Positions 7,990-63,164 of a stretch of DNA of 64,000 nucleotides are shown one piece after another. Numbering within the stretch: the stretch's first letter is position 1; each line of letters opens with the position of its first letter. A program made the translations under genes and the position numbers. This DNA comes from Pontibacter anaerobius (GTDB taxonomy: Bacteria > Bacteroidota > Bacteroidia > Cytophagales > Hymenobacteraceae): the NCBI RefSeq assembly GCF_026241195.1, contig NZ_JAPFQO010000014.1, positions 1-64,000 on the forward strand. The letters run 5' to 3'. The notes beneath the pieces are model-generated. The model was given only the letters and a program-made list of their open reading frames with translations, did not search any database and was not told the DNA's origin.

Positions 7990-8907
7990 TTGAAGAACTC
8001 GGTTTATACTTTGTTGATAAGTGTTATGTTGCTAAGCCTGGGCAGCTGCGGCCAGCCTCAGTGGAACAGCGACTATAACCTTGACATGGCGCGCCTGAAG
8101 GAGAGCAGCAAAGTAAAGACCGATGCCCTAGCCTCAGCCGATACCACATTGCCCACCGTGGAAAAAAGAAACCCGCTGGAGGAGGAGATAGCCGAGAAAA
8201 AGAAAAAACGAAAGGTAAAACGCAGCAAGCGCGAGTTTCTGGGCTATAAGATAAAACGCGGCTACACCAAGACCGGCGGCCGTTACAAGGAAACCATAGA
8301 GACCTTCGGGTACTTGCCCGAGCACCAGGAACCGAACGAGTACGCCCCCTACAAGTATTATTACGACACCAAAAAAAGTAAACTGGCCCGCTCAGGCTCT
8401 AATGTAGAGGACACCGACCGCTACAAAGTGTTACATGGCCCTTACAAGAAAACTCTGAACGACGAGGTAGTGGAGGAAGGCTACTTTTACGTGGGCACCA
8501 AGCACCTGCGCTGGGAGAAATACCGCAATAACGACGACCATACCTTGGTGGACAAGGAGCACTACGACAAGGGCTTCCTGCGCGATGCGGTGGTAACCTA
8601 CTACGGCGACACCAAAAAGATTAAGGAAGTGATACCGTATGAGTATGGCGAGGTGCAGGGCACTTATTACCGTTTCTATGAAAACGGACAGCTGGAGTGG
8701 AGCGGGCAGTACCAGAAAGGCCGTAAGATAGGTGTCTGGATCAACTACTACGACTTCCGGAACCGCCGCCACTACGAGTTTCAGTACCCCGAAACCGCCT
8801 ACGACGCACCCCACGAGCCATACCTGATAAAGGAGTATGACCGCCACGCCACCCCCATCTACGAGCGCGGCAAATTCGACAAACGCGAGCAGGCAAGCAG
8901 TAAATAA
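7990..8907 (+). CDS. lipoprotein with MORN-like repeats
   Basis: A 305-residue predicted lipoprotein. I keep the TTG start because it gives a complete signal peptide, MKNSVYTLLISVMLLSLGSC, with lipidation at Cys20. After a Lys-rich stretch (EKKKKRKVKRSKRE, ~66-80) the second half carries YwqK/MORN-type repeats: HGPYKKTL, GEVQGTYYRFYENGQLEWSG and KGRKIGVWINYY. Such repeats are beta-hairpin scaffolds and do not predict a function by themselves. It is a single gene; repeat block A begins directly after its stop. Confidence 0.75.
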   Translation: MKNSVYTLLISVMLLSLGSCGQPQWNSDYNLDMARLKESSKVKTDALASADTTLPTVEKRNPLEEEIAEKKKKRKVKRSKREFLGYKIKRGYTKTGGRYKETIETFGYLPEHQEPNEYAPYKYYYDTKKSKLARSGSNVEDTDRYKVLHGPYKKTLNDEVVEEGYFYVGTKHLRWEKYRNNDDHTLVDKEHYDKGFLRDAVVTYYGDTKKIKEVIPYEYGEVQGTYYRFYENGQLEWSGQYQKGRKIGVWINYYDFRNRRHYEFQYPETAYDAPHEPYLIKEYDRHATPIYERGKFDKREQASSK

Positions 8908-8916
8908 AACTGCCGT

Positions 8917-9558
8917 ACCGGGTCCAACCACCCCTGCCCCTCCTGGGGGTGCAGGGGCCCCTTTAGAGGCTAAGGCGGGGAGTTTTTAGCAGATGTAAAC
9001 CCACCCCTATTCCTCCGAAGAGGGGGATTTTCAGCAGGCGATTACATCCCCCTCCTGCCCCCTTCGAAGGGGGACTTAGACCTCTTTTCATAGCAAAGGC
9101 AGCAGCTATTGAAACTGATCCCAGTCTTTCCGTTGAGCGCCTTGTGAGATCCGGTGCCGCGCATGCGGCAGCGCCCTGGCGCAGGAGGGAACACCGCGCG
9201 ATGCGGGAAGACGAGCCCTCCCGGGCTGGAGGGAGCCAAGGCCAGAGATGAAACGCTAGGGTTTGTAGGACTGAGGATGAACCAATGCTAGAACAGATAG
9301 CTTGGTTCCAGTTGCAGGAAGCAGCGGCTAAGAAAGCATAAAGTATGGCTCACGCGGATTAGGAAGTCCGCGGCAGAGAGGTTCCGGACAAGGATGTCCG
9401 GAACAGCGGGTAGCTTAGCTCAAGTTAAAGGAAGCAGCGGTCAAAGTATAAATCGACAGGTATAAATCATCGTCAAAGTATAAAGTATGGCTACAGTTGA
9501 GTTACAAACTCAACACCATAAAAGGACACAAGTCTGAAGACTTGCGCCAGAGGGGGAA
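8917..9558. repeat. intergenic repeat block A (modular palindromes)
   Basis: A 714-bp gap (8908-9621) made of repeat modules shared with block B at 62614-63164, which lies in the opposite orientation. In order: C-rich unit 1 (8917-8962, GTACCGGGTCCAACC then CCCCTGCCCCTCC); unit 2 (8994-9031, GTAAACCCACCCCTA); unit 3 (9043-9078, CCCCCTTCGAAGGGGG); a core of about 170 bp (9100-9275) with CCAGTCTTT, GTTGAGCGCC, GAAGACGAG and GGAGCCAA shared with B; two strong palindromes at 9352-9404; and a final scaffold (9474-9558) containing GTTGAGTTACAAACTCAAC and a stem-loop CAAGTCTGAAGACTTG. Several AAGTATA copies lie between modules. No ORF or transposase is present. Confidence 0.8.
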
Positions 9559-42012: not shown

Positions 42013-43269
42013 ATGACAGTATCTAAAATGGCGCAGAACCTGATCGGCTCCGAAATTATTCGGGTGGCCGGCGAGGTGAACGCAATGATTGCCAAGGGGG
42101 AGCCTATCTGCAACCTCACCATCGGCGACTTTAACCCAAGCATTTACCCGATTCCGGAGGAGTTGCGCAAAGGCATTACCAAAGCCTATGAGCAGGGGCA
42201 CACGAACTACCCGCCTGCCAACGGCGTGGCGGTGCTGCGCAAGGCGGTGGTGGCCTTTACCAAAGAGCGCCTTGGCCTTACTTACCCGGAGAACGATATA
42301 CTGGTGGCTGGCGGCTCTCGTCCGCTAATCTACGCCACTTACCTGGCCCTGGTAGATCCGGGCGATAAGGTAGTGTACCCCACACCATCCTGGAACAACA
42401 ACCACTACTGCCACCTTTCCGGCGCTACGCCGGTGGAGGTGAAAACGCGGCCAGAGAACAATTTTATGCCGACTGCCGAAGATGTGAAGCCACATCTGAA
42501 AGGCGCTACCATGCTGGCCCTGTGCTCTCCGCTGAACCCGACGGGCACGATGTTCTCTAAGAAAGACCTGGAAGAAATTTGCGACCTGGTGCTGGAGGAG
42601 AACCGCAGCCGCGGTGAAGGCGAAAAGCCCCTGTACGTGCTCTACGACCAGATTTACTGGATGCTGACCTTTGGCAACGCCGAGCACTATGACCCGGTGA
42701 GCCTGCGCCCCGATATGCGCGACTACACGGTATACATCGACGGCACCTCCAAGTGCTTTGCCGCCACAGGCGTGCGCGTGGGCTATGCCTTTGGCCCGAC
42801 GGTGGTGATGGATAAGATGAAATCCATACTTGGCCATGTGGGTGCCTGGGCTCCTAAGGCCGAGCAGATGGCTATGGCCGAGTTCTTGGGCCAGCCCGAG
42901 GAGGTGGACGGTTTTATGGGTGAGTTTAAGCCGAAAGTACAGGAGAGCCTGAACGTGCTGTACAACGGTTTCCAGGAGCTGAAGTCGGAGGGTTATGCCG
43001 TGGATGCCATTGAGCCGATGGGCGCGATCTACCTGTCTGCGAAGATGGACCTGGCGGGCAAAACCGCACCGGATGGCAAAGTGCTGGAGACGAGCCAGGA
43101 CATAACGTTTTACATACTACACGAGGCAAAGCTGGCCGTGGTGCCGTTCTCTGCCTTCGGCTCCGGCAAAGACCTCAACTGGTTCAGGCTGTCGGTGGGA
43201 GGTGCCTCTTTAGAGGAGATTAAGGCATCGCTGGGCAGGCTGCGCGAGGCGCTTCAGAAGCTGAAGTAA
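42013..43269 (+). CDS. PLP-dependent aminotransferase, class I/II
   Basis: A 418-residue fold-type I aminotransferase. The PLP lysine is in DGTSKCFAATGVRVGYAFGP (~residue 245); also seen are the phosphate-cup GGSRPLIYATY, LCSPLNPTGTMF (the N-P-T-G motif), VLYDQIYWML (Asp-x-x-Tyr) and FRLSVGGAS with the carboxylate-binding Arg. The family is close to aspartate/aromatic aminotransferases; the amino donor is not clear. It is a single gene, followed at once by a C-rich repeat unit. Confidence 0.88.
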   Translation: MTVSKMAQNLIGSEIIRVAGEVNAMIAKGEPICNLTIGDFNPSIYPIPEELRKGITKAYEQGHTNYPPANGVAVLRKAVVAFTKERLGLTYPENDILVAGGSRPLIYATYLALVDPGDKVVYPTPSWNNNHYCHLSGATPVEVKTRPENNFMPTAEDVKPHLKGATMLALCSPLNPTGTMFSKKDLEEICDLVLEENRSRGEGEKPLYVLYDQIYWMLTFGNAEHYDPVSLRPDMRDYTVYIDGTSKCFAATGVRVGYAFGPTVVMDKMKSILGHVGAWAPKAEQMAMAEFLGQPEEVDGFMGEFKPKVQESLNVLYNGFQELKSEGYAVDAIEPMGAIYLSAKMDLAGKTAPDGKVLETSQDITFYILHEAKLAVVPFSAFGSGKDLNWFRLSVGGASLEEIKASLGRLREALQKLK

Positions 43270-43272
43270 TAT

Positions 43273-43404
43273 TATTCCCCTCCTTGGAGGGGCAGGGGTG
43301 GGTTTATGCCTGCCGCAAGATTTCATCTTGTGGCTTTTGAATGGGGCAAGCTTTCAGCTTGCGTTGATTGCTCGGTCTATACTTCCGCAAGCTGAAAGCT
43401 TGCC
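43273..43404. repeat. C-rich unit plus palindromes after the aminotransferase gene
   Basis: Within a 290-bp gap, 43273-43308 is a C-rich unit (on the minus strand AAACCCACCCCTGCCCCTCC followed by AAGGAGGGGAA) starting 4 bp after the stop codon. It is followed by a palindrome with arms GCCGCAAGAT and ATCTTGTGGC (43312-43334) and by a perfect 19-bp inverted repeat, GGCAAGCTTTCAGCTTGCG at 43345-43363 and its complement at 43386-43404. The units resemble those in blocks A and B. Confidence 0.75.
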
Positions 43405-48671: not shown

Positions 48672-48773
48672 GACCTTTGCCGTTTCTTCTGTGGCAGAAG
48701 GAGCAGCGCACAACGGCAAGTGTAAATTTTGTGAAGCACCAAAAGGTGATTCTACAAGAAAGTTTATACATTG

Positions 48774-48805
48774 TTTGTAATTAGAGATTTAAGCTTTTAT
48801 ATTTG
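48774..48805 (+). promoter_or_regulatory. promoter of rpmG
   Basis: TTTG (48774-48777), 20 bases, TATATTTG (48798-48805): a full Bacteroidota -33/-7 pair, 28 bp before the ATG. Confidence 0.78.
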
Positions 48806-48833
48806 CAGTCCTAAATAAAAAATTACTGTCGAG

Positions 48834-49022
48834 ATGGCTAAAAAAGCAAAAGGTAATAGAATCCAGGTTATTATGGAGTGCACAGAGCATAAAGCTACTG
48901 GCATGCCTGGAACTTCAAGGTACATCACTACCAAAAACAGAAAGAATACTCCAGAGCGTCTTGAGCTGAAGAAGTATAACCCTGTGTTGAAAAAAGTAAC
49001 TGTACATAAAGAAATTAAATAA
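48834..49022 (+). CDS. rpmG: 50S ribosomal protein L33
   Basis: A 62-residue bL33: [46 protein letters not shown]. It has a single Cys where the zinc-binding form would have four, so it is the zinc-free (C-) type. Two bases separate it from the DUF4295 gene. Confidence 0.98.
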
Positions 49023-49024
49023 CC

Positions 49025-49180
49025 ATGGCTAAGAAGGTAGTTGCAACCCTAAAGACCGCTACAGGTAAAGACTGGGCAAAAGTGATCAAGGCTGTGAAGT
49101 CTCCAAAAACTGGTGCTTACAGCTTTAAAGAGGAGATGGTGCCTGTTGACAAAGTTCAGGAGTACCTTTCTAAGAAATAA
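49025..49180 (+). CDS. DUF4295 family protein (probable ribosomal protein bL38)
   Basis: A 51-residue basic protein: MAKKVVATLKTATGKDWAKV, then KSPKTGAYSFKEEMVPVDKV and a Y-L-S-K-K end. This is DUF4295, found in Bacteroidota between rpmG and ftsY exactly as here. The Flavobacterium johnsoniae ribosome structure revealed a new large-subunit protein, bL38; from memory I think it is this family, but I cannot check that here. High lysine content, codon bias and co-transcription with rpmG all fit a ribosomal protein. Confidence 0.88.
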   Translation: MAKKVVATLKTATGKDWAKVIKAVKSPKTGAYSFKEEMVPVDKVQEYLSKK

Positions 49181-49218
49181 TACAGCCTACTCTACATCGA
49201 TAGATAGATAACATGAAG

Positions 49219-49242
49219 AAGTCCCTTTACTGGGACTTTTTT
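49219..49242 (+). terminator. terminator after rpmG-DUF4295
   Basis: AAGTCCC / GGGACTT short stem followed by TTTTT. Confidence 0.75.
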
Positions 49243-49293
49243 AGTATATTACCGTATCACTGATATAGCATTCACCCTACATCATAAACCGGC

Positions 49294-50253
49294 ATGGGAA
49301 TTTTTGACTTTTTCAGCAAAGAGAAGAAAAAAGAATCGCTGGACAAAGGCCTCGAGAAAACCAAGGACAGCTTTTTTGGTCAGCTAAGTAAAGCTGTAAT
49401 TGGTAAATCTACAGTAGATGTGGAGGTGCTGGATGAACTGGAAGAAATTCTGGTGCATGCTGATGTGGGAGTAGAAACTACGGTAAAGATTATAAACCGC
49501 ATCGAGAAGCGCGTGGCCCGCGACAAGTACGTGAGCACCGACGAGCTGGACAAGATCCTGCGCGAGGAGATTGCGGCCTTGCTGGAGGAGAACCGTGCCG
49601 GTGACGGTGCCAACTTCGACCTGCCGAAAGACATCAAACCCTATGTAATCATGGTAGTGGGTGTGAATGGCGTGGGTAAAACCACGACCATCGGTAAGCT
49701 GGCTGCCCAGTTCCATAAAGCGGGCAAGCAGGTAGTGCTTGGTGCCGCCGATACTTTCCGTGCCGCCGCCGTAGATCAGTTGATCGTGTGGGGCGAGCGT
49801 GTGGGTGTTCCGGTTATCTCGCACGGCATGAACACGGACCCTGCCTCCGTGGCGTATGATGCTGTGAAAAAAGGCGTGGAGATGAATGCCGATGTGGTGA
49901 TCATAGACACAGCCGGGCGACTGCACAACAAGGTGGGCCTGATGAACGAGCTGTCCAAGATCAAGCGCGTGATGCAGAAAATAACACCAGACACGCCGCA
50001 TGAGGTGCTGCTGGTGCTGGACGGAAGCACTGGCCAGAACGCCCTGCTGCAGGCCCGCGAGTTTACGAAAGCCACCGATGTTACAGCCCTGGCCATTACC
50101 AAACTGGACGGCACGGCAAAAGGTGGCGTGGTAATCGGTATCTCGGATGAGTTTAAGATTCCGGTGAAGTATATCGGAGTTGGCGAGAAAATTGAAGACC
50201 TGCAGCTATTCGACAAGCACGAATTTGTAGAGTCTTTCTTCTCACGCAAATAA
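49294..50253 (+). CDS. ftsY: signal recognition particle receptor FtsY
   Basis: A 319-residue SRP GTPase that docks ribosome-SRP complexes at the inner membrane. It has only a short charged N-terminus (FFSKEKKKESLDKGLEKTK) in place of the long acidic A domain of E. coli, then the N helices and G domain: GVNGVGKTTTIGKLAA (P-loop), DTFRAAAVDQL, DTAGRLHNK and TKLDGTAKGG. GVGEKIEDLQLFD closes the domain. Confidence 0.98.
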   Translation: MGIFDFFSKEKKKESLDKGLEKTKDSFFGQLSKAVIGKSTVDVEVLDELEEILVHADVGVETTVKIINRIEKRVARDKYVSTDELDKILREEIAALLEENRAGDGANFDLPKDIKPYVIMVVGVNGVGKTTTIGKLAAQFHKAGKQVVLGAADTFRAAAVDQLIVWGERVGVPVISHGMNTDPASVAYDAVKKGVEMNADVVIIDTAGRLHNKVGLMNELSKIKRVMQKITPDTPHEVLLVLDGSTGQNALLQAREFTKATDVTALAITKLDGTAKGGVVIGISDEFKIPVKYIGVGEKIEDLQLFDKHEFVESFFSRK

Positions 50254-52990: not shown

Positions 52991-54304
52991 GTGAAAGTAA
53001 GATCTCTAAAGAAAGATAAGGTAAACGTAATTACACTGGGTTGCTCTAAAAACCTGGTGGATTCGGAAGTACTGATGGGGCAGCTGCGCGCCAATGAGTT
53101 TGAGGTGGCGCATGAGTCTGAGAACGACGATTCTAACATTATCATCGTGAACACCTGCGGCTTTATCGACAATGCCAAACAGGAGTCTATCGATACCATT
53201 CTGCGCTACGCCGAGGCCAAAGAGTCCGGGCAGATCGACAAGCTGTACGTAACCGGGTGTTTATCGCAGCGCTACAAGGACTCGCTGGAGGAGGAGATTC
53301 CGCAGGTGGACGCCTACTTCGGCACGCTGGAGCTGCCGCAGCTGCTCAAGAAGCTAGAGGCTGACTACAAGCACGAGCTGATCGGGGAGCGCCTGATCAC
53401 CACGCCTTCGCACTTCGCTTACTTTAAGATTGCCGAGGGCTGTAACCGCCCTTGCTCGTTCTGCGCCATCCCGCTGATGCGCGGCAAGCACGTAGACCGC
53501 CCGATTGAGGATTTGGTGAAGGAGGCTAAGCGCCTGGCAAGTATGGGTACGAAGGAACTGGTGCTGATTGCCCAGGACCTAACTTACTATGGCCTGCAGC
53601 ACTACGGTGAGCGTAAGCTGGCAGATCTTTTAAGAAACCTTTCGGATGTGGAAGGCATTGACTGGATCCGAATGCAGTATGCCTACCCGTCGCAGTTTCC
53701 GATGGAGGTTTTTGATGTGATGAACGAGCGTGAGAACATCTGTAAATACCTGGACATGCCGCTGCAGCACATCTCGGACAACATGCTCAAGACCATGCGC
53801 CGTGGCATTAGCAAGCGTCGCACTATCGAGTTGGTAGACCAGATCCGCCAGCGCGTGCCAGACATCGCCCTGAGAACAACCCTGATCGCCGGTCACCCGG
53901 GCGAGACGGAGCAGGATTTCCAGGAGCTGTATGACTGGGTAGAGGAAACACGCTTTGACAGGCTCGGCATCTTTACGTACTCGCATGAGGATAACACGCA
54001 CTCTTATACTTTGGAGGACAACGTGCCGGAAGAAGTGAAGCAGGAGCGCGCCGACGCCATCATGGAGCTGCAGCAGGGCATCTCAGTGGAGCTGAACGAG
54101 GAGAAGATCGGCAAGACCTACAAGGTGCTTTTCGACCGTAAGGAGAGTGGCTACTTCGTGGGCCGCACCCAGTACGACTCTCCGGAGGTAGACAACGAGG
54201 TACTCGTACCAGCCGACAGCAACTACGTACGCCTCGGCGACTTCGCCAACGTGAAGATTACCGACGCGTCTGATTTTGATTTGTATGGTGAGGTGGTCGT
54301 GTAA
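52991..54304 (+). CDS. rimO: ribosomal protein S12 methylthiotransferase RimO
   Basis: A 437-residue radical SAM enzyme that adds a methylthio group to an Asp of ribosomal protein S12. N-terminal UPF0004 domain with three cluster-binding cysteines (ITLGCSKNLVDSE, NTCGFIDNAKQES, VTGCLSQRYKDSL); radical SAM core EGCNRPCSFCAIPLMRG (C-x3-C-x2-C); C-terminal TRAM domain (~370-437). GTG start. An inverted repeat starts at the base right after its stop codon. Confidence 0.98.
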   Translation: MKVRSLKKDKVNVITLGCSKNLVDSEVLMGQLRANEFEVAHESENDDSNIIIVNTCGFIDNAKQESIDTILRYAEAKESGQIDKLYVTGCLSQRYKDSLEEEIPQVDAYFGTLELPQLLKKLEADYKHELIGERLITTPSHFAYFKIAEGCNRPCSFCAIPLMRGKHVDRPIEDLVKEAKRLASMGTKELVLIAQDLTYYGLQHYGERKLADLLRNLSDVEGIDWIRMQYAYPSQFPMEVFDVMNERENICKYLDMPLQHISDNMLKTMRRGISKRRTIELVDQIRQRVPDIALRTTLIAGHPGETEQDFQELYDWVEETRFDRLGIFTYSHEDNTHSYTLEDNVPEEVKQERADAIMELQQGISVELNEEKIGKTYKVLFDRKESGYFVGRTQYDSPEVDNEVLVPADSNYVRLGDFANVKITDASDFDLYGEVVV

Positions 54305-54356
54305 GACCTCCCCCTGCCCCCTCCTAAAAACAGGAGGGGGTGTGAAGATACTTTTA

Positions 54357-54392
54357 AAAAGCCCTTTCCATTTTAAGATGGAAAGGGCTTTT
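54357..54392. terminator. strong hairpin downstream of rimO
   Basis: Perfect 15-bp stem AAAAGCCCTTTCCAT / ATGGAAAGGGCTTTT with a 6-base loop; it can terminate in both directions. Confidence 0.85.
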
Positions 54393-54445
54393 GCTTTTTG
54401 GAACAGTATGAATGGGATTGCTGTTTGCTGGAAAAGTATACGTCT

Positions 54446-54817
54446 ATGCGGAAAGACCAATTGCACAGTATGCCTAATCTGAGGCAAGAGCGATCTTTTT
54501 TAAGGTGTAACATGACTCCTGCAGAGAAAGAGTTGTGGAGGTTGCTGCGGAAACACAAGTTGGCAGGCCGCAAATTCAGAAGACAGCACAGTATCGGCAG
54601 TTATATTGTAGATTTTTACTGTGCCGCCGAGAAATTAGTATTAGAAGTTGATGGTTCTGTGCACGACACACCCGATGCTATTGCAAATGATTTAATGAGA
54701 AATGAAACCTTGCAACATTTGGGCTACAAAGTCATCCGCATCAGAAACAGTGAAGTTTTCGAACACCCAGAACTGGTGCTACAAAGAATCGCCTCGATGT
54801 TTAGCAAAAACTACTAG
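54446..54817 (+). CDS. DUF559 domain endonuclease-like protein
   Basis: A 123-residue protein of the DUF559 family, related to very-short-patch-repair (Vsr) and PD-(D/E)xK nucleases. Motifs: N-M-T-P-A-E-K-E-L-W (~22-31), KFRRQHSIGSYIVDFYC (~43-59, with the catalytic Asp in VDFY), LVLEVDGSVHD (~64-74, E-x-D) and YKVIRIRNSEVF. I start at MRKDQLHSMPNLRQ, typical for the family, rather than at a TTG 16 codons upstream. It is enclosed by inverted repeats, which suggests that the protein cuts or moves these repeats; that is inference. Confidence 0.9.
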   Translation: MRKDQLHSMPNLRQERSFLRCNMTPAEKELWRLLRKHKLAGRKFRRQHSIGSYIVDFYCAAEKLVLEVDGSVHDTPDAIANDLMRNETLQHLGYKVIRIRNSEVFEHPELVLQRIASMFSKNY

Positions 54818-54854
54818 CGTACCCCTCCTGTTTTTAGGAGGGGGCAGGGGGAGG

Positions 54855-55232
54855 TCATAATACATACCTGCTCAGCACCCTATAAGCCTCGTTTATATTA
54901 TCACCCTTCCGGAAGTCCTGCTTGATGGTTGGCTCTGACTCGCCGGTGAGCCAGATCTTGAGCTCTGCGTCCAGGTCTGCAATGCCGGCGCTCTCTTTGG
55001 AGAACATCTTAATGCTGCCGTAAGGTATACTTTGGTAATCCACCTTCGTGCCGGTGAGGCCCTGCTTGTTTACAAGTATAAGCCGTTTGTTGGTGAACAC
55101 GAGCATGTCGCGGATCAGCTTGTAGGCCCGCTCGATGCGCTCGTCGTCAATCAGGATGGGCTGAAACTCCCTGGACAGTTTTTCGATGGACACCTCGGAG
55201 GCGTGGCCCATCATACCGCTTAATAATCCCAT
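54855..55232 (-). CDS. bacterial PH-domain protein
   Basis: A 125-residue protein of a small bacterial pleckstrin-homology family: SEVSIEKLSREFQPILIDDERIERAYKLIRDMLVFTNKRLILV, then VDYQSIPYGSIKMFSKESAG and LDAELKIWL. The start MGLLSGMMGHASEV at 55232 matches the family; an ORF extending to 55334 adds unrelated sequence. Function unknown; likely cytoplasmic. Its TGA stop overlaps the right inverted repeat of the DUF559 element. Confidence 0.85.
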   Translation of the reverse strand: MGLLSGMMGHASEVSIEKLSREFQPILIDDERIERAYKLIRDMLVFTNKRLILVNKQGLTGTKVDYQSIPYGSIKMFSKESAGIADLDAELKIWLTGESEPTIKQDFRKGDNINEAYRVLSRYVL

Positions 55233-55492
55233 GAGTATAGAAGTATAGGTTAGAAAAGTTATCTCCTGCTGTACGATTGATGGCGGAATAGTTTTCGCCA
55301 TTACCCGATTTGAGCAGGTGCAACTACTGCTCATGCCCCTCTTCCTGCTTTCTATCGTATCATCTGCAAAACAAGAAATAAAACCTTTACTTTGTGCCGA
55401 AGCGGCAAAGTATAAATTAGCCGCAACACATTTCGGGCTAAACTGTTAAAAGGGCTACACCTACGGCTACAAAGCAGATGGAAGTACAAACC

Positions 55493-57058
55493 ATGAAAAT
55501 CACGAAGCTAGACTACGCCGCCACGGGCGCGTTTTCCAAGACCATAACCGATTACCTTTGTTGTAGCGAGCAGTTGCAACCATTCTACAACCGCTTCCCG
55601 ACCTTGGAAACCTTCGGGACCCAGCTGAAGGAGAAAAGCTTTAGCGGCGCGCAGCGGAAAACCCTGCACCAGGCACTGCAGGAGCAGTATACTTCCATCT
55701 CTGAGGTAAATCCCAAAGTGCAGGAGAACATTGATCTGCTGCAGCAGCCAAACACCTACACCGTTACCACCGGGCACCAGCTCAACATTTTTACCGGCCC
55801 GCTATACTTTGTGTATAAAATCATCACGGCCATCAACACCTGCCGCCAGCTAAAAGAGCAGTACCCCGACTATAACTTTGTGCCGGTATACTGGATGGCC
55901 ACCGAAGACCACGACTTTGCCGAGATCAACCACTTTAACCTGTTCGGGAAAAAGTATACCTGGCAGAGCGAGCAAACCGGCGCCGTGGGCCGCTTCTCCA
56001 CCAAAGACATGGAGCCGCTGCTGGCAGACCTGCCGGAGGCATACCCGGTGTTTGAGGACGCCTACCGCAATAGCAGGAACCTGGCGGACGCCACCCGTGC
56101 CATCACGCATTCCCTGTTCGGGGACTATGGCCTGGTAAGTATAGACGGCGACGACAAATTGCTGAAAAAGGCCCTGATCCCGGTGGTGGAGCAGGAACTG
56201 ACCGAGCAGCTCTCGAACCGTCTGGTGGAAGAGACGAGCCAGCAGTTGGAGGAACTGGGCTACAAACCGCAGGTATACTCCCGCGAGATCAACATGTTTT
56301 ACCTGACCGACGGCCTGCGCGAACGCATTGTGCAGGAAGGGAGCAAGTATAAAATCCTGAACACCAACCTAAGTTATACGTTGGAGGAACTGCAGCAGGA
56401 GGCGCAGGAGCATCCGGAGCGCTTTAGCCCAAATGTTATACTTCGCCCGCTGTATGAAGAGCTGATACTGCCGAACTTGGCCTACATCGGCGGTGGTGCC
56501 GAGGTGACGTACTGGTTCCAGCTCAAGAAGCTGTTTGCAAAGTATAACCTGGCCTTCCCGCTGCTGATGCTACGCAACTCGGCCCTATACATTAACCGCA
56601 GTAACGCCAGCCGCATGCACAAGCTGGGCCTGCAGCCACAAGACCTGTTCCAGGATTACCAGGAGCTGAAGAAGCAACTCTCCGGCCAGCTGCACGAGGA
56701 GGAGATAAACCTGGAGGCGCAGCGCGAGGCTGTGGCCGCCGCCTTTACCGAGGTAGAGAAGCTGGCCGAAAGTATAGACCCGACCCTGCAGAAAGCCGTG
56801 GGAGCCGAGGCGCAGAAAACCATCAATTCGCTGCAGATGCTCGAGAAGAAGATATCCAAGGCCCGCGACAGCAAACACGAGCAGACCTTTAAGCAACTGG
56901 AGAACCTGAAGGATAAACTTTTCCCGGGCGGAACGCTGCAGGAGCGCAAGGATAACCTGCTTACTTTCCAGACGAACAACCCTGACTTTATACCTGCCCT
57001 GGTAGAGGCTTTCGAGCCGCTGGAGTTTAAATTTACCGTACTGGAGGAAGAGGCGTAA
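55493..57058 (+). CDS. bshC: bacillithiol biosynthesis cysteine-adding enzyme BshC
   Basis: A 521-residue BshC, the last enzyme of bacillithiol synthesis, which adds cysteine to glucosaminyl-malate. Family segments: VTTGHQLNIFTGPLYFVYKIITAIN, FVPVYWMATEDHDFAEINHF, FSPNVILRPLYEELILPNLAYIGGGAEVTYWFQLK, and a C-terminal coiled coil (~380-500). I use the second ATG (MKITKLDYAATGAFS); the first, at 55478, adds five residues. The gene is rich in AAGTATA/TATACTT copies (about ten). Its last base is shared with the next start (TAATG). Confidence 0.94.
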   Translation: MKITKLDYAATGAFSKTITDYLCCSEQLQPFYNRFPTLETFGTQLKEKSFSGAQRKTLHQALQEQYTSISEVNPKVQENIDLLQQPNTYTVTTGHQLNIFTGPLYFVYKIITAINTCRQLKEQYPDYNFVPVYWMATEDHDFAEINHFNLFGKKYTWQSEQTGAVGRFSTKDMEPLLADLPEAYPVFEDAYRNSRNLADATRAITHSLFGDYGLVSIDGDDKLLKKALIPVVEQELTEQLSNRLVEETSQQLEELGYKPQVYSREINMFYLTDGLRERIVQEGSKYKILNTNLSYTLEELQQEAQEHPERFSPNVILRPLYEELILPNLAYIGGGAEVTYWFQLKKLFAKYNLAFPLLMLRNSALYINRSNASRMHKLGLQPQDLFQDYQELKKQLSGQLHEEEINLEAQREAVAAAFTEVEKLAESIDPTLQKAVGAEAQKTINSLQMLEKKISKARDSKHEQTFKQLENLKDKLFPGGTLQERKDNLLTFQTNNPDFIPALVEAFEPLEFKFTVLEEEA

Positions 57059-57636
57059 TGCTGAAGGCGGAGTTACGCAAACACATGCTGCGGCAGCGGC
57101 GCACCCTGCCACAGGAAGAGGTGCAGCAGCGCAGCGAACGTATAGCCGAAGTGTTTTTCCGTCACTTTCCGTTGCAGGTAGGCCAAACGGTGCATGTATT
57201 CCTGCCCATCATCAAGAACAACGAGGTCAACACCTGGAGCATCATCAACCGGCTGCGGCAGGAGCACCCCGAAGTGCGGGTAGCGGTGCCGGTAACCGAT
57301 GTGGAACAGAACGTGCTTACGCACCACCACCTGACCGATGAGGCCGTGCTGATAGAAAACAACTGGGGCATACCCGAGCCGCAGGACGCGCACATTATAC
57401 ACGCCCAGGAGGTGGATGTGGTGCTGGTGCCGCTGCTGGCTTTCGATAAGGCGGGCCACCGTGTGGGCTACGGCAAAGGCTTCTACGACCGGTTTTTGGC
57501 CGACTGCCGCCCGGATGTGCTGAAGATTGGACTCTCGCTGGAGCCGCCCGTGGAAAACATAGCTGACCCTAACCCGTTTGATGTGCCGCTGGATGCCGTG
57601 GTGATGCCGCACGGGGTATGGTGGGCTTCAGAATAA
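57058..57636 (+). CDS. 5-formyltetrahydrofolate cyclo-ligase
   Basis: A 192-residue enzyme of the ATP-dependent 5-formyl-THF cyclo-ligase family, which returns 5-formyl-THF to the folate pool as 5,10-methenyl-THF. N-terminal KAELRKHMLRQRRTLP, then VDVVLVPLLAFDKAGHRVGYGKGFYDRFL, the substrate and ATP signature, ending PLDAVVMPHGV. Translationally coupled to bshC through overlapping stop and start codons. Confidence 0.95.
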   Translation: MLKAELRKHMLRQRRTLPQEEVQQRSERIAEVFFRHFPLQVGQTVHVFLPIIKNNEVNTWSIINRLRQEHPEVRVAVPVTDVEQNVLTHHHLTDEAVLIENNWGIPEPQDAHIIHAQEVDVVLVPLLAFDKAGHRVGYGKGFYDRFLADCRPDVLKIGLSLEPPVENIADPNPFDVPLDAVVMPHGVWWASE

Positions 57637-57720
57637 CAACAGGTAAATTTTTTTTAATAAATATATTTGTAGAAACAAACGTATAGCCCTCTAAGGCTTA
57701 TTTTTTAATAAGCTATGTTG

Positions 57721-57728
57721 TACTTTTG
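57721..57728 (+). promoter_or_regulatory. -7 box for the TetR gene
   Basis: TACTTTTG, exact consensus; transcription would start near 57735, so an ORF start at 57715 is too early and the ATG at 57811 is favoured. Confidence 0.6.
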
Positions 57729-57810
57729 TAATTCGCCTTGGCCGGTGCAGGCGCACAGGCCTGCCATACCTGTTGCTGATGTAAGGAAAATCCGTTATTT
57801 TAGTAAGAAG

Positions 57811-58347
57811 ATGCCCAAAACCAAGAAAGAAATCATTCTAGACACCGCATTAAACCTCTTTGCAGAAAAAGGGTACGATGCCACCCCAACCAGCCAGATA
57901 GCCAAAGCGGCTGGCGTATCAGAAGGCCTTATATTTAAGCACTACATCAGCAAGGAAAACCTGCTGGATGCAGTTGTAAAAGCGGGTTATAGGCGCATTA
58001 CCGAGAAGAGTAAGAAATCGGTGGAGGAGAATGACCCGGCCAAGCTGATCAGCAATGTGCTGGACATGCCGCAGAAGCTGGTGGAGGACGAGCGGGATTT
58101 CTGGCGGATGCAGTTCCGGATGGTGGACGAGGAAGTGGCGCAGCGGCACCACCAGCGTTATTTGAACTCTGTAAAGGCCAAGCTGGTAGAGGCGTTCCGG
58201 AAGCTGGGGCATAAGGAGCCCGAGCTGGAGACGGAGATCCTGATGCTGTTGGTGGAGGGACTCTGGAGAGCCTACCTGACCAACGAGGATAAAACCCATT
58301 TCGCTAAAATGCTGGACCTGACAAAGGCAAAGTTCATCAACCAATAA
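57811..58347 (+). CDS. TetR/AcrR family transcriptional regulator
   Basis: A 178-residue regulator. N-terminal TetR helix-turn-helix: KKEIILDTALNLFAEKGYDATPTSQIAKAAGVSEGLIFKHYISKENLL (~5-52). The C-terminal helical domain (ligand binding, dimerisation) has no recognisable ligand signature. It stands alone between the bshC pair and a convergent small gene, so no target can be named; self-regulation is usual for the family. Confidence 0.93.
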   Translation: MPKTKKEIILDTALNLFAEKGYDATPTSQIAKAAGVSEGLIFKHYISKENLLDAVVKAGYRRITEKSKKSVEENDPAKLISNVLDMPQKLVEDERDFWRMQFRMVDEEVAQRHHQRYLNSVKAKLVEAFRKLGHKEPELETEILMLLVEGLWRAYLTNEDKTHFAKMLDLTKAKFINQ

Positions 58348-58381
58348 GCTGAAGTATAAACCAGCATCATACTAAAACAGA

Positions 58382-58410
58382 AGAGCCTCCCGGCGCAACC
58401 GGGAGGCTCT
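58382..58410. terminator. bidirectional terminator
   Basis: Perfect 12-bp stem AGAGCCTCCCGG / CCGGGAGGCTCT between the convergent TetR gene and the small gene at 58437. Confidence 0.82.
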
Positions 58411-58436
58411 TCTGTTTCTTATCCTGTAAAAACGCC

Positions 58437-58745
58437 TTAGCCTTTGTACACGATGTTGAATTTCTTCAGCTCATCCACCGGTCCGAAGTGCTGCTTCTCG
58501 ATGGTTCTGCCGCGGCGCTTCAGGTGTACCTCCACTGGGGCCATGGTTCTGGTCATGTCGGAGTTAATCACCTTTACGTAAAATTTTCTGGCTTCTTCAG
58601 AGGCACCTTTCTCGAAAGTGTGCTTTTGCTGGTTGCCGTTTACCGGTAGTCCCGGAATTACCTGGTAAGAGGTGCAAACCACTTCATACTTAGGAAGAAA
58701 CGGTTTGATGATGCTGGAAGATACTTTTCTAAGTAAGCTTTTCAT
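58437..58745 (-). CDS. conserved hypothetical protein, 102 aa
   Basis: A 102-residue basic protein: SLLRKVSSSIIKPFLPKYEVVC, YQVIPGLPVNGNQQKHTFEKG, ARKFYVKVINSDMTRTMAPVEVHLKRRGR. No signal peptide or membrane helix; the middle suggests a small beta fold. I do not recognise the family. A TACTTTG box lies ~60 bp upstream on the minus strand. Codon use is like that of its neighbours, and the ORF ends next to a shared terminator, so I treat it as real. Confidence 0.65.
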   Translation of the reverse strand: MKSLLRKVSSSIIKPFLPKYEVVCTSYQVIPGLPVNGNQQKHTFEKGASEEARKFYVKVINSDMTRTMAPVEVHLKRRGRTIEKQHFGPVDELKKFNIVYKG

Positions 58746-58968
58746 ATAGTAAACATTTAGGGGATGCTTCTTCTACACTGCAATGTAGCGTTTTATTTAT
58801 TATTTCAAAGTATGGCGGCTGCAAAAAAGTGCAATTTAGTCCCTAACTATTTCGTTGTGGATTAGGTTCATCTTTGATCAGGACAAAATGCAAAAAAGTG
58901 TCGTGCAGCCTAAGCGGCTTGTTTCCAACACAAGAGGCAGGCAAAGTATAAGCGGTGTTAAAGTATAA
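58746..58968. other. intergenic; short direct repeats
   Basis: 223 bp. GCAAAAAAGTG occurs twice (near 58825 and 58890), and two AAGTATA copies sit close to the end of the next gene. No gene seen. Confidence 0.4.
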
Positions 58969-60081
58969 CTATTTGGTTGTCAGGGTGTCGGGTTGCTTGC
59001 CCTCCTTCTGTGCCTCTTCCACCCCTTCCTGTATCGTTTCTACCGCCTCTTCGTGGGTATCCTCGTCCGGGGCTGGGGCTACCTGCTCATACTTCTCGTC
59101 CGGCTCATAGCTCAGTGTCACAAAAATTGGGAAGTGGTCCGAGTTGATACCCTTCAGCCTTTTCATCTCCACCAGCTTGAAATGGTTGGAGTGGAAAATG
59201 TGGTCGAGGGGCCAGCGGAACATAGGGTAGTGGGCATGGTAGGTGCTAAAGAAGCCGCGGCCCACGCGCGGGTCCAGCAGCTGGCTTACCTCCTGGAAAA
59301 GCCGCGTGGTAGGCGACCAGGCCACATCATTAAAATCGCCGGCCACCACCACAGGGTATTTCGAGTCGGCCACCTCTCTGCCTACTATAATGATCTCTGC
59401 GTCGCGCTTACGCGAGTGCTCTTCCTCGGTAGGCACCGGCGGCTTGGGATGCACCCCCCTAAACTCAATCCAGGCGCCGCTGCGAAGCTGCATATACGTT
59501 TTAATGGATGGGATCTCATCATCCAGGATATAGCTGACCTTCTTCTGGCGGAGGGGCAGCTTGCTGTACAGGTGCATGCCGTAGGTGTTGGGTAGCGGCA
59601 CCTCCACGCGGTAAGGGTAGGCTTTGGTAACCTCCTTCAGGCCTTCCTGCCACGCCGAGTCAGACTCCAGCGCCAGCAGTACATCCGGCTCATAGCTGTT
59701 TACCATTTCTATAAGATGGCTGTACGCTGTGTTAGTCATCAGCACATTAGAAACCAGGATGCTCAGGTGGGTGGTGTCGGAAAGGTCGCGCTCGGTCTGC
59801 TCCGTCTGCACCGGCGAAAGTATGGTGTAGGGGTAAATGTTGATCGATTGGTAAACCACAACGGTAACCAGCGTGAAAAGCAGCAACTTGCCCCTTTTGC
59901 GGTGCTGGTAATCGAAAAAGTAAAACAGCACCAGGCTAATGACGGCCAGGAAGAAAAGCTGCAGCCTCGGGAAATCGAAAACACGCACATACCATTCTTC
60001 TGAGGAGAAAAGCGGGATCACGGTACCGATGACAGCGATAGCTGCCAGGGCGCGGATCAGAATAATAAATGCTTGTTTCAT
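58969..60081 (-). CDS. membrane-anchored endonuclease/exonuclease/phosphatase family protein
   Basis: A 370-residue protein with three N-terminal membrane helices (FIILIRALAAIAVIGTVIPLF, LQLFFLAVISLVLFYFF, KLLLFTLVTVVVYQSI) and then an EEP (DNase I-like) domain (~105-325): LSILVSNVLM, YEPDVLLALES, VVVAGDFNDVAWSP and GINSDHFPIFVTL carry the metal and catalytic residues. The domain lies after the third helix, probably in the periplasm. The tail (~330-370) is acidic and disordered. Substrate unknown: DNA, sugar-phosphate or lipid. Confidence 0.9.
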   Translation of the reverse strand: MKQAFIILIRALAAIAVIGTVIPLFSSEEWYVRVFDFPRLQLFFLAVISLVLFYFFDYQHRKRGKLLLFTLVTVVVYQSINIYPYTILSPVQTEQTERDLSDTTHLSILVSNVLMTNTAYSHLIEMVNSYEPDVLLALESDSAWQEGLKEVTKAYPYRVEVPLPNTYGMHLYSKLPLRQKKVSYILDDEIPSIKTYMQLRSGAWIEFRGVHPKPPVPTEEEHSRKRDAEIIIVGREVADSKYPVVVAGDFNDVAWSPTTRLFQEVSQLLDPRVGRGFFSTYHAHYPMFRWPLDHIFHSNHFKLVEMKRLKGINSDHFPIFVTLSYEPDEKYEQVAPAPDEDTHEEAVETIQEGVEEAQKEGKQPDTLTTK

Positions 60082-61450: not shown

Positions 61451-62524
61451 ATGAGTTTGATTGCAGATATAAATATCCTGAATAAAAAGGACATCCGGAA
61501 GCTGACGCTGGACGACCTGAAGGCGTGGCTGGTGGAGAACGGGGAGAAGGCTTTCCGGGCCAAGCAAGTATACGAGTGGCTCTGGAAGCACTCGGCACAG
61601 TCGTTTGCGGAGATGAACAACGTGAGCCTGGCCCTGCGCGAGAAGCTGGACCAGCACTTCACCATAAACGCGGTGCAGGTGGCCACCGAGCAGCTGAGCA
61701 ACGACGGCACCATAAAGTCAGCTTTCAAACTGCACGACGCCCACATTGTAGAGGGGGTGCTGATTCCGCACGACGAGCGTAAAACCGCCTGTGTGAGCAG
61801 TCAGGTAGGGTGCTCGCTTACCTGCAAGTTCTGCGCTACCGGCTACATGGACCGTGTCCGCAACCTCGATGCCGCCGAGATCTACGACCAGGTGGTGCGC
61901 ATCAACGAGCAGAGTCTGAAGCAGTATAACCAGCCGCTCACCAACATCGTGTACATGGGCATGGGCGAGCCGATGCTGAACTACGCCAACGTGATGAAGA
62001 GCATCGAGCGCATCACGGCACATGATGGCCTGGGGATGGCTGCCCGCCGCATCACGGTTAGTACCGCCGGTATCGCCAAGATGATCAAGAAGATGGCTGA
62101 TGATGGCGTGAAGGCAAATCTGGCCCTGTCGCTGCACGCGGCCAACGATGAGAAGCGCAACCAGATCATGCCGATAAACGAGACCAACTCTTTGGAGGCT
62201 CTGAAGGATGCGCTGAAGCACTACCACCAGGTAACCGGCCGCAAGGTAACGTATGAGTACATCGTGTTCGATAACTTCAACGATACCCTGCAGGATGCCG
62301 AGGAACTGCTTCGCTTCTCCAAAATCATCCCGTGCAAGATCAACCTGATTGAATATAACCCGATCGAGAACGCCGATTTCGTGAATACGGATGATGACCG
62401 CCTGCAAGCGTTTATCTACTACCTGGCCGACCGTGGCCTGCAGGTAAACGTGCGCCGCAGCCGTGGAAAGGACATCGACGCTGCCTGTGGCCAGCTGGCC
62501 GTGAAGGAGAAGCTGCCTGCGTAA
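61451..62524 (+). CDS. rlmN: 23S rRNA/tRNA adenine-C2 methyltransferase RlmN
   Basis: A 357-residue radical SAM enzyme that methylates A2503 of 23S rRNA and A37 of some tRNAs. N-terminal helical domain (DDLKAWLVENGEKAFRAKQVYEWLWK), radical SAM core CSLTCKFCATGYM (C-x3-C-x2-C), VYMGMGEPMLNY, and the C-terminal cysteine in DAACGQLA that forms the covalent RNA intermediate; the other active-site Cys is in KTACVSSQVGC. Full length and typical. Confidence 0.98.
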   Translation: MSLIADINILNKKDIRKLTLDDLKAWLVENGEKAFRAKQVYEWLWKHSAQSFAEMNNVSLALREKLDQHFTINAVQVATEQLSNDGTIKSAFKLHDAHIVEGVLIPHDERKTACVSSQVGCSLTCKFCATGYMDRVRNLDAAEIYDQVVRINEQSLKQYNQPLTNIVYMGMGEPMLNYANVMKSIERITAHDGLGMAARRITVSTAGIAKMIKKMADDGVKANLALSLHAANDEKRNQIMPINETNSLEALKDALKHYHQVTGRKVTYEYIVFDNFNDTLQDAEELLRFSKIIPCKINLIEYNPIENADFVNTDDDRLQAFIYYLADRGLQVNVRRSRGKDIDAACGQLAVKEKLPA

Positions 62525-62538
62525 AGTATAAATCTCAG

Positions 62539-62599
62539 TTTAGAGTATAAGAGAACGGCCCCTGCTACACTAGCAGGGGCCGTTCTCTTATACTCTAAA
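62539..62599. terminator. 61-nt perfect palindrome after rlmN
   Basis: A perfect 29-bp stem (62539-62567 with 62571-62599) around a 3-base loop, CAC. The stem contains AGAGTATAAGAGAACGG and the GC-rich GGCCCCTGCT. There is no T run right after it; it may terminate or process the rlmN mRNA on either strand. Confidence 0.8.
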
Positions 62600-62613: not shown

Positions 62614-63164
62614 ATTCCCCTCTGGCGCCCCGAAAGGTTTCGGGGTGTCTTTTTATGATGTTGAGTTTGTAACTCAACTGGCTCGCAGAGCCATACTTTA
62701 TACTTTGGTTGTACTTCGTACCTGTCTATTTATACTTGTCTAGCCTTCCTATAACATGAGTCAAGCTATACTTTATAGCTGCTGCTGATCCTAAGTCTTA
62801 CAATCCTATCGTTTCATCTCTGACTTTGGCTCCCTCAAGGCCGGGAGGCCTCGTCTTCGGGCATCGCGCTGGGAGCTTTTCTTTGCTCGCTGTCGTTTTG
62901 CAATCCCTTCGGGACCGAAAAACTCGCATAGGCGCTCAACCCAAAGACTGGAATCAGTTCGATAGCCGCCGCTGACGGAGCTTGTACCAAGTCCCCCTTC
63001 GAAGGGGGCAGGGGGATGACCCGAAATGGCTGAGGATACGAAGCTTATACCTCTGATGTGACAGCTACCGAATTCCCCTCCTTAAGCAAGGAGGGGTAGG
63101 GGTGGTTGGAACCGGTACTGCGAAACTCCCTCTCCTGTTTTGGGGGTAGGGGTGGGTTTACACT
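62614..63164. repeat. intergenic repeat block B (modular palindromes)
   Basis: Most of the 805-bp gap 62525-63329. Read on the minus strand it repeats block A: unit 2 (63164-63124, GTAAACCCACCCCTACCCCC), unit 1 (63117-63070, GGTTCCAACCACCCCTACCC), unit 3 (63023-62986, CCCCCTTCGAAGGGGG), the core (about 62970-62785, with CCAGTCTTT, GTTGAGCGCC, GAAGACGAG, GGAGCCAA) and the end scaffold (62707-62614) with GTTGAGTTACAAACTCAAC. In that scaffold, between GACAC and GCGCCAGAGG, block B has stem-loop CCCCGAAACCTTTCGGGG where block A has another. No ORF. Confidence 0.8.

Follow-up and report, generated by a model that had tools for sequence, protein, structure and literature searches.

The DUF559 gene located downstream of rimO in a 64,000-nucleotide stretch of Pontibacter anaerobius DNA (the window, that is, the whole stretch that we analysed) lies between two inverted palindromic units of the REP kind. 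The same pairing of gene and repeat occurs across genomes and phyla, and the two partners co-evolve type by type. On the strength of these sequence comparisons, we conclude that DUF559 is the cognate partner of a REP superfamily, a position that for GTAG-REPs belongs to RAYT.

The rimO locus and the enclosed nuclease

The unit sits between rimO (52991-54304) and bPH_1 (54855-55334, minus strand), two convergent genes, and comprises the following features:

54305..54339, plus strand: left REP unit, with a C-rich lead GACCTCCCCCTGCC and a hairpin CCCCTCCTAAAAACAGGAGGGG, immediately 3' of the rimO stop codon
54360..54399, plus strand: terminator-like hairpin and T run between the left REP and the DUF559 gene, read in the sequence and compared with relatives
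54446..54817 (stop included), plus strand: DUF559 gene, 123 aa, with a Vsr/EDxHD-like PD-(D/E)xK fold (Pfam, AlphaFold2 model, fold matches)
54822..54856, minus strand: right REP unit, exact reverse complement of the left one, overlapping the bPH_1 stop codon

The left REP, GACCTCCCCCTGCCCCCTCCTAAAAACAGGAGGGG, and its right counterpart are complementary at 35 of 35 positions. The perfect match ends there on both sides, the extended inverted pair reaching 38 nt at 97% identity, and the computed fold gives each arm a hairpin of -15 kcal/mol. The sole ORF between the two REPs matches PF04480/DUF559 in a Pfam profile search (E=2e-33); its start codon is likely to be the ATG at 54446, for a product of 123 aa. 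The initial annotation, which had described a single Vsr-like DUF559 nuclease gene enclosed by perfect 35-bp inverted repeats, each with its own hairpin, was thus accurate on these points. The hairpin at 54360-54399 is probably rimO's own terminator, now within the unit. No Rfam family matched anywhere in the window.

As a control for chance, a 320-nt dummy gene was placed every 250 nt along the window (251 positions) and its inverted flanks were scored. A score of at least 20 was reached at the DUF559 position alone (35.5, against a median of 10 and a 95th percentile of 12.5), which puts the inverted flanks of this gene far above chance.

An AlphaFold2 model of the window protein (pLDDT 90) matches the N. 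gonorrhoeae DUF559 protein NGO0050 (3hrl, Z 14.7), the catalytic domain of the homing endonuclease I-Bth0305I (3r3p, Z 12.1) and Vsr (Z 11.2), and shares its core fold with TnsA (Z 7.6). Among 51 sequences, positions E27, D56, D69, H73 and D82 are invariant and E67 is nearly so; the conserved acidic and histidine positions E27, D56, E67, D69 and H73 are likely to be catalytic. The E. coli member of the family, YcjD, was predicted in 2005 to be a PD-(D/E)XK nuclease related to Vsr, with no function given (PMC1189080). Where synonymous change is not saturated, dN/dS ranges from 0.03 to 0.19 (0.19, from one pair, for the DUF559 sequence inside metH described below), values which indicate that the gene is kept under strong purifying selection.

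Flanking repeats and their covariation with the protein

DUF559 is present in 107 of 120 genomes searched from the window's family, Hymenobacteraceae, with one to eight copies per genome at differing sites. For 93 of these loci we compared the 500 nt upstream of the gene with the reverse complement of the 500 nt downstream, using a threshold score of 20. The expectation that DUF559 genes of relatives would also carry flanking repeats was borne out: an inverted match scoring at least 20 was found at 86 of the 93 loci (median score 38), the other seven having no flanking REPs. Pairs taken across genomes scored 11.5 and the same flanks in direct orientation 12.5; together with the dummy-gene scan, these cross-locus and direct-orientation controls rule out chance or generic inverted flanks. 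Nearly all of the matched pieces correspond to one C-rich unit, a lead followed by a hairpin, in about two dozen variants. Of 53 loci in genomes with several DUF559 genes, 48 match their own flank partner better than that of any other DUF559 locus in the genome.

It had also been proposed that the repeat sequence follows DUF559 phylogeny, and we found a close association between the two. REP distance correlates with DUF559 protein distance (Mantel r 0.68, the maximum of 2000 permutations being 0.10), and at 43 of 48 loci the nearest protein, from another genome, carries a closer REP than the other DUF559 loci of the same genome. REP types form blocks on the protein tree, among them a ACCTCCCCC..TAAAAACA type, a CCAACCACCCC type and a AACCACCCC type, the last in opposite orientation.

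Repeat number with and without the gene

In the window's genome (4.65 Mb, 29 contigs), the lead-plus-stem pattern has 175 matches, against 10 for a reversed control. There are three DUF559 genes, each between inverted units of its own flavour. Related genomes carry tens to hundreds of REP copies.

The repeats would lose their connection to the gene if they were equally common in genomes that lack it, and they are not. In the window's family, the median number of pattern matches is 3 in the 13 genomes without DUF559 and 36 in the 106 genomes with it (p=2e-5), and the dependence holds within the window's own genus alone (p=0.003). In Xanthomonadaceae, where the proteobacterial form of the unit was counted, at least 10 copies are present in 55 of 84 genomes with DUF559 and in 1 of 65 without (odds ratio 121, p about 2.6e-19 to 4e-18, ancestry ignored). 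Most of these presence/absence statistics ignore shared ancestry. On the rimO tree, the DUF559-less species form three separate lineages, each REP-poor (5, 2 and 18 matches), with REP-rich species nearby (99, 40, 51 and others); with three pairs, a sign test is not significant. We considered a RAYT (PF01797) as hidden driver and rejected it, its presence being unrelated to REP number: in a control, presence of Y1_Tnp, the RAYT superfamily, did not predict REP number (p=0.23). In the window's family as in a distant one, the palindromes abound almost exclusively alongside a DUF559 gene, so that DUF559 is probably responsible for their spread or maintenance.

Occupied, empty and gene-less sites

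The 3' end of rimO exists in several states among relatives. A cassette of the same type and orientation is present in genomes G081, G064, G122, G049 and G075, and one of the same type but inverted in G013, while G113 and G055 hold cassettes of other types. G107, G120, G077 and G033 have gene-less inverted REP pairs and G109 a fused single palindrome. Empty sites, which the initial annotation had suggested looking for in relatives, were found in G061 and G091. Beside its cassette, the G055 site retains a short remnant, GGCAGGGGAGGTCACAACACATAC, corresponding to the outer portion of the older type-1 unit. Separately from the rimO site, a short-spacer REP pair present in G081 is missing at the equivalent position in G107.

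At a second site, within the metH gene for cobalamin-dependent methionine synthase, a REP-DUF559-REP unit is present in 4 of 119 genomes, the remaining 115 being empty. It occupies the linker before the B12-binding domain. The four copies are found on G063:C78, G037:C58, G022:C1 and G003:C1 (loci L004, L005, L009 and L006, respectively); in three of the genomes the unit is in frame and a reading frame of 1385-1440 aa stays open, whereas in G003 the frame breaks after DUF559. Absence of the gene from the same site in close relatives, a criterion for homing endonucleases, is therefore observed at both metH and rimO. In several species (L008, L010, L011 and L013), a unit makes up an in-frame C-terminal tail of an apparent purQ, directly before a purC-like gene.

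We asked whether the gene-less pairs could be internal deletions of a DUF559 unit and rejected this, as the four spacers contain no remnant of the gene and are unrelated to each other. No target-site duplication or sharp element end was seen at metH or rimO, where the linker and the flanks, respectively, are too diverged to define ends. The presence of a host terminator inside the rimO unit argues against a single clean insertion.

Distribution beyond the family

Outside the family, 53 of 74 usable DUF559 loci have inverted flanks scoring at least 20, compared with 12% of cross pairs. These loci come mostly from Proteobacteria, with some Desulfobacterota-type and Spirochaetes records (L188, which contains N runs, was left out of the positives), and their unit has the form CCCCTCTCCC..GGGAGAGGGGTTGGGGTGAGGG. 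The same layout is seen at plasmid DUF559 loci of Deinococcus, Sphingomonas and Pseudanabaena. Overall, inverted REPs surround the gene at most of the sampled Proteobacteria loci and at some of those from Deinococcus and Cyanobacteria. Flanking REPs are missing at some DUF559 genes, several of which are plasmid copies adjoining defence genes. For instance, in L154-L156, from Synechocystis and Picosynechococcus plasmids, DUF559 has no clear inverted REPs and lies near BREX pglX and DUF499/DUF1156; these neighbours hint at a second context for the family. In viral contigs, the window protein had no relatives; another search for DUF559 gave two phage matches only.

In E. coli K-12, the DUF559 gene is ycjD, and hairpins of the C-rich design are located at and downstream of its 3' end; in the ycjD-fabI region (L246), two such hairpins of REP design follow the gene. 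A 49-nt query taken from the ycjD end is found in 5376 of 5426 E. coli genomes, at a median of 19 places per genome. In number and length the repeat resembles BoxC (PMC2267715), and from copy number and length alone we would guess that it belongs to the BoxC family. In N. gonorrhoeae (NZ_CP119142.1), clustered C-rich units, regularly spaced at about 281 nt, occur near 48726-49310, 57024-59000 and 1410625-1411765, and one C-rich cluster adjoins a DUF559 gene at 49599-49910.

How the pair may spread

We consider it fairly probable that DUF559 is a dedicated selfish nuclease of the REPs that flank it, which would serve as its own recognition unit, and that it spreads REPs and cassettes by homing-like break repair. 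The Vsr/EDxHD-fold nuclease would recognise its cognate REP, either as a hairpin or as a duplex, and nick or break it. Repair of the break, or recombination, via other REP copies could then copy REPs, REP pairs or complete REP-DUF559-REP cassettes into other sites, and the same recombination route could swap cassettes between REP pairs. The non-autonomous members would comprise the solo REPs and the inverted pairs without a gene. Insertions would survive where they do the least harm: close behind stop codons, at the ends of convergent genes and in tolerant protein linkers. Within their palindromic hairpin core, the two REPs can equally be read as direct repeats, so that a deletion between them would leave a fused palindrome like that of G109; recombination between the inverted arms, as we read the anatomy of the site, would flip the gene as in G013. 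For a broader proposal the chances seem to us about even: stand-alone DUF559 proteins (COG2852) may be non-HUH enzymes that drive a superfamily of C-rich palindromes across phyla (the E. coli ycjD repeat with its ~19 copies among them), acting by homing-like break and copy on hairpins and planting themselves in frame even in essential proteins such as MetH.

Could DUF559 rather be the transposase of an IS-like element, with the REPs as its terminal inverted repeats? Solo REPs and pairs would then be MITE-like derivatives that the transposase excises and inserts in trans, and homing into existing REPs would not be needed. This would account for a lone gene being bounded by inverted terminal units, for gene-less inverted pairs that are polymorphic between species and for one to eight copies per genome at different sites, and the core fold shared with TnsA (Z 7.6) is in its favour. 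We nevertheless think it unlikely, given that no target-site duplication was seen, that gene-less pairs have no internal gene remnants, that a host terminator lies within the rimO unit and that the protein, a lone 123-aa Vsr-like nuclease, has no strand-transfer domain. The simplest view of the rimO site, where each unit adjoins or overlaps the stop codon of one of the convergent genes, would be that the repeats are only bidirectional terminators and their link to DUF559 a matter of chance or convenience. This is highly improbable: 86 of 93 loci have matching flanks, and they do so in many different surroundings, among them the inside of metH and the end of purQ; of the 251 dummy positions in the window, a single one is flanked in this way; and the covariation with phylogeny contradicts it.

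Two further explanations leave the spread of the REPs to something else. Vsr repairs T:G mismatches, and DUF559 could similarly have been domesticated by the host to trim or repair hairpins or mismatches formed at REPs, the REPs spreading otherwise and being tolerated only where the enzyme is present. The Vsr fold, the strong purifying selection (also inside metH) and the REP-poor genomes without DUF559 are all consistent with such a role. However, several DUF559/REP pairs co-evolve by type within one genome and the gene has a patchy, site-hopping distribution, both of which a selfish pair fits better, and no other driver was found, Y1_Tnp not being predictive; we therefore hold this explanation to be improbable. 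Less credible again, in our opinion, is the possibility that another enzyme drives the REPs and that DUF559 genes are secondary parasites homing into REP pairs. The ratio of REPs to DUF559 genes in the window's genome, some 60 to 1 (175 to 3), would fit, as would the rimO site of G055, where a remnant of an earlier REP type adjoins a cassette of another type, but genomes without DUF559 have almost no REPs, each DUF559 clade has a flanking type of its own, and RAYT-family presence does not predict REP number.

Comparison with known systems

In the REP/RAYT system (TnpA_REP, with its GTAG-REPs, REPINs and REPtrons) (PMC2817692, PMC3116915, PMC3733652), RAYTs were tied to GTAG-REPs by the same signature of gene-repeat co-evolution (PMC2817692, PMC3116915). 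The DUF559 system shares with it dispersed, mostly extragenic palindromes that number from tens to hundreds, occur alone or as inverted pairs and are sometimes in frame within genes, as well as a single gene per REP type, located between inverted REPs, and a cognate repeat for each clade. In contrast, DUF559 units start with a C-rich lead (for example, GACCTCCCCCTGCC or CCAACCACCCCTG) and have no GTAG head, and the flanked gene encodes a Vsr/EDxHD-fold DUF559 protein instead of a Y1 HUH tyrosine transposase and is independent of Y1_Tnp. The layout predicted from the window, REP/RAYT-like with a nuclease replacing the tyrosine transposase, is supported: none of the three outcomes that the initial annotation named as refuting it was observed. 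As both the GTAG head and the HUH transposase were looked for and neither was found, the DUF559 system appears to work like REP/RAYT without being a member of it.

The closest characterised fold is that of I-Bth0305I, an EDxHD/Vsr-type homing endonuclease (3r3p), which likewise is a selfish nuclease gene with variable sites and empty alleles. Unlike I-Bth0305I, DUF559 is not in an intron, and the inverted palindromes on either side of it also occur as many dispersed solo copies. YcjD and NGO0050 (3hrl) belong to the same DUF559 family, and C-rich hairpins lie beside ycjD in K-12; a link to repeats was not previously known for either protein. In the literature on DUF559, COG2852, ycjD, Vsr and REP, as covered outside subscription journals, we found no DUF559-REP link, and the link is probably new, short of proof.

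For many palindromic repeats of bacteria, no driver is known. Among them are the CGTC-tagged REPs, widespread palindromes reported without a dedicated transposase (PMC3733652), which differ from the C-rich units by their CGTC head. A common unexplained protein family here gains a testable function and a common repeat class a candidate enzyme. Since a DUF559/repeat pair is present in E. coli (ycjD), the driver of non-RAYT palindromes is open to direct test. If our reading holds, a Vsr-fold nuclease would have to be counted among the selfish elements by which gene ends, and at times protein sequences, are shaped.

Solo units in the window

Isolated units are also scattered over the window:

8917..8981, plus strand: solo REP of CCAACCACCCC type, carrying at 8937-8959 a rare loop variant, CCCCTCCTGGGGGTGCAGGGGCC, found beside DUF559 gene no. 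3 as well
8994..9030, plus strand: solo REP of AACCCACCCC type, eroded, type assigned by comparison
9043..9078, plus strand: solo unit with CCCCCTTCGAAGGGGG core
43274..43313, minus strand: solo REP of AACCCACCCC type, 5 nt past the stop of ORF 42013-43269
62989..63015, minus strand: solo unit with CCCCCTTCGAAGGGGG core
63072..63115, minus strand: solo REP of CCAACCACCCC type
63124..63160, minus strand: solo REP of AACCCACCCC type, stem eroded

The initial annotation had taken all of these for single units of the same design. This holds for those at 8917, 43273 and 63070, but is a little generous for those at 8994, 9043, 62986 and 63124, which are other or eroded subtypes (the CCCCCTTCGAAGGGGG core at 9043 and 62986). 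Placement after stop codons, also proposed there, applies to several units and is not a rule, some being in frame within genes. The REP at 43274-43313 is missing or replaced in most relatives. The rare loop variant has four copies in the window's genome, including the one at 8937 and that beside DUF559 gene no. 3, and is missing in 45 of 50 congeners.

Two intergenic regions 54 kb apart, 8900-9530 and 62640-63121, are mutually inverted over several hundred nucleotides and contain several REP types; they may be parts of a larger repeated mosaic element. A perfect 29-nt inverted repeat with a 3-nt loop is located at 62539-62599, just 3' of ORF 61451-62524. Finally, another short palindrome, GGACAGGTCGCGACCTGTCC, recurs near REPs in the window's family, at L027 and L123 and in intergenic regions of G107 and G113.
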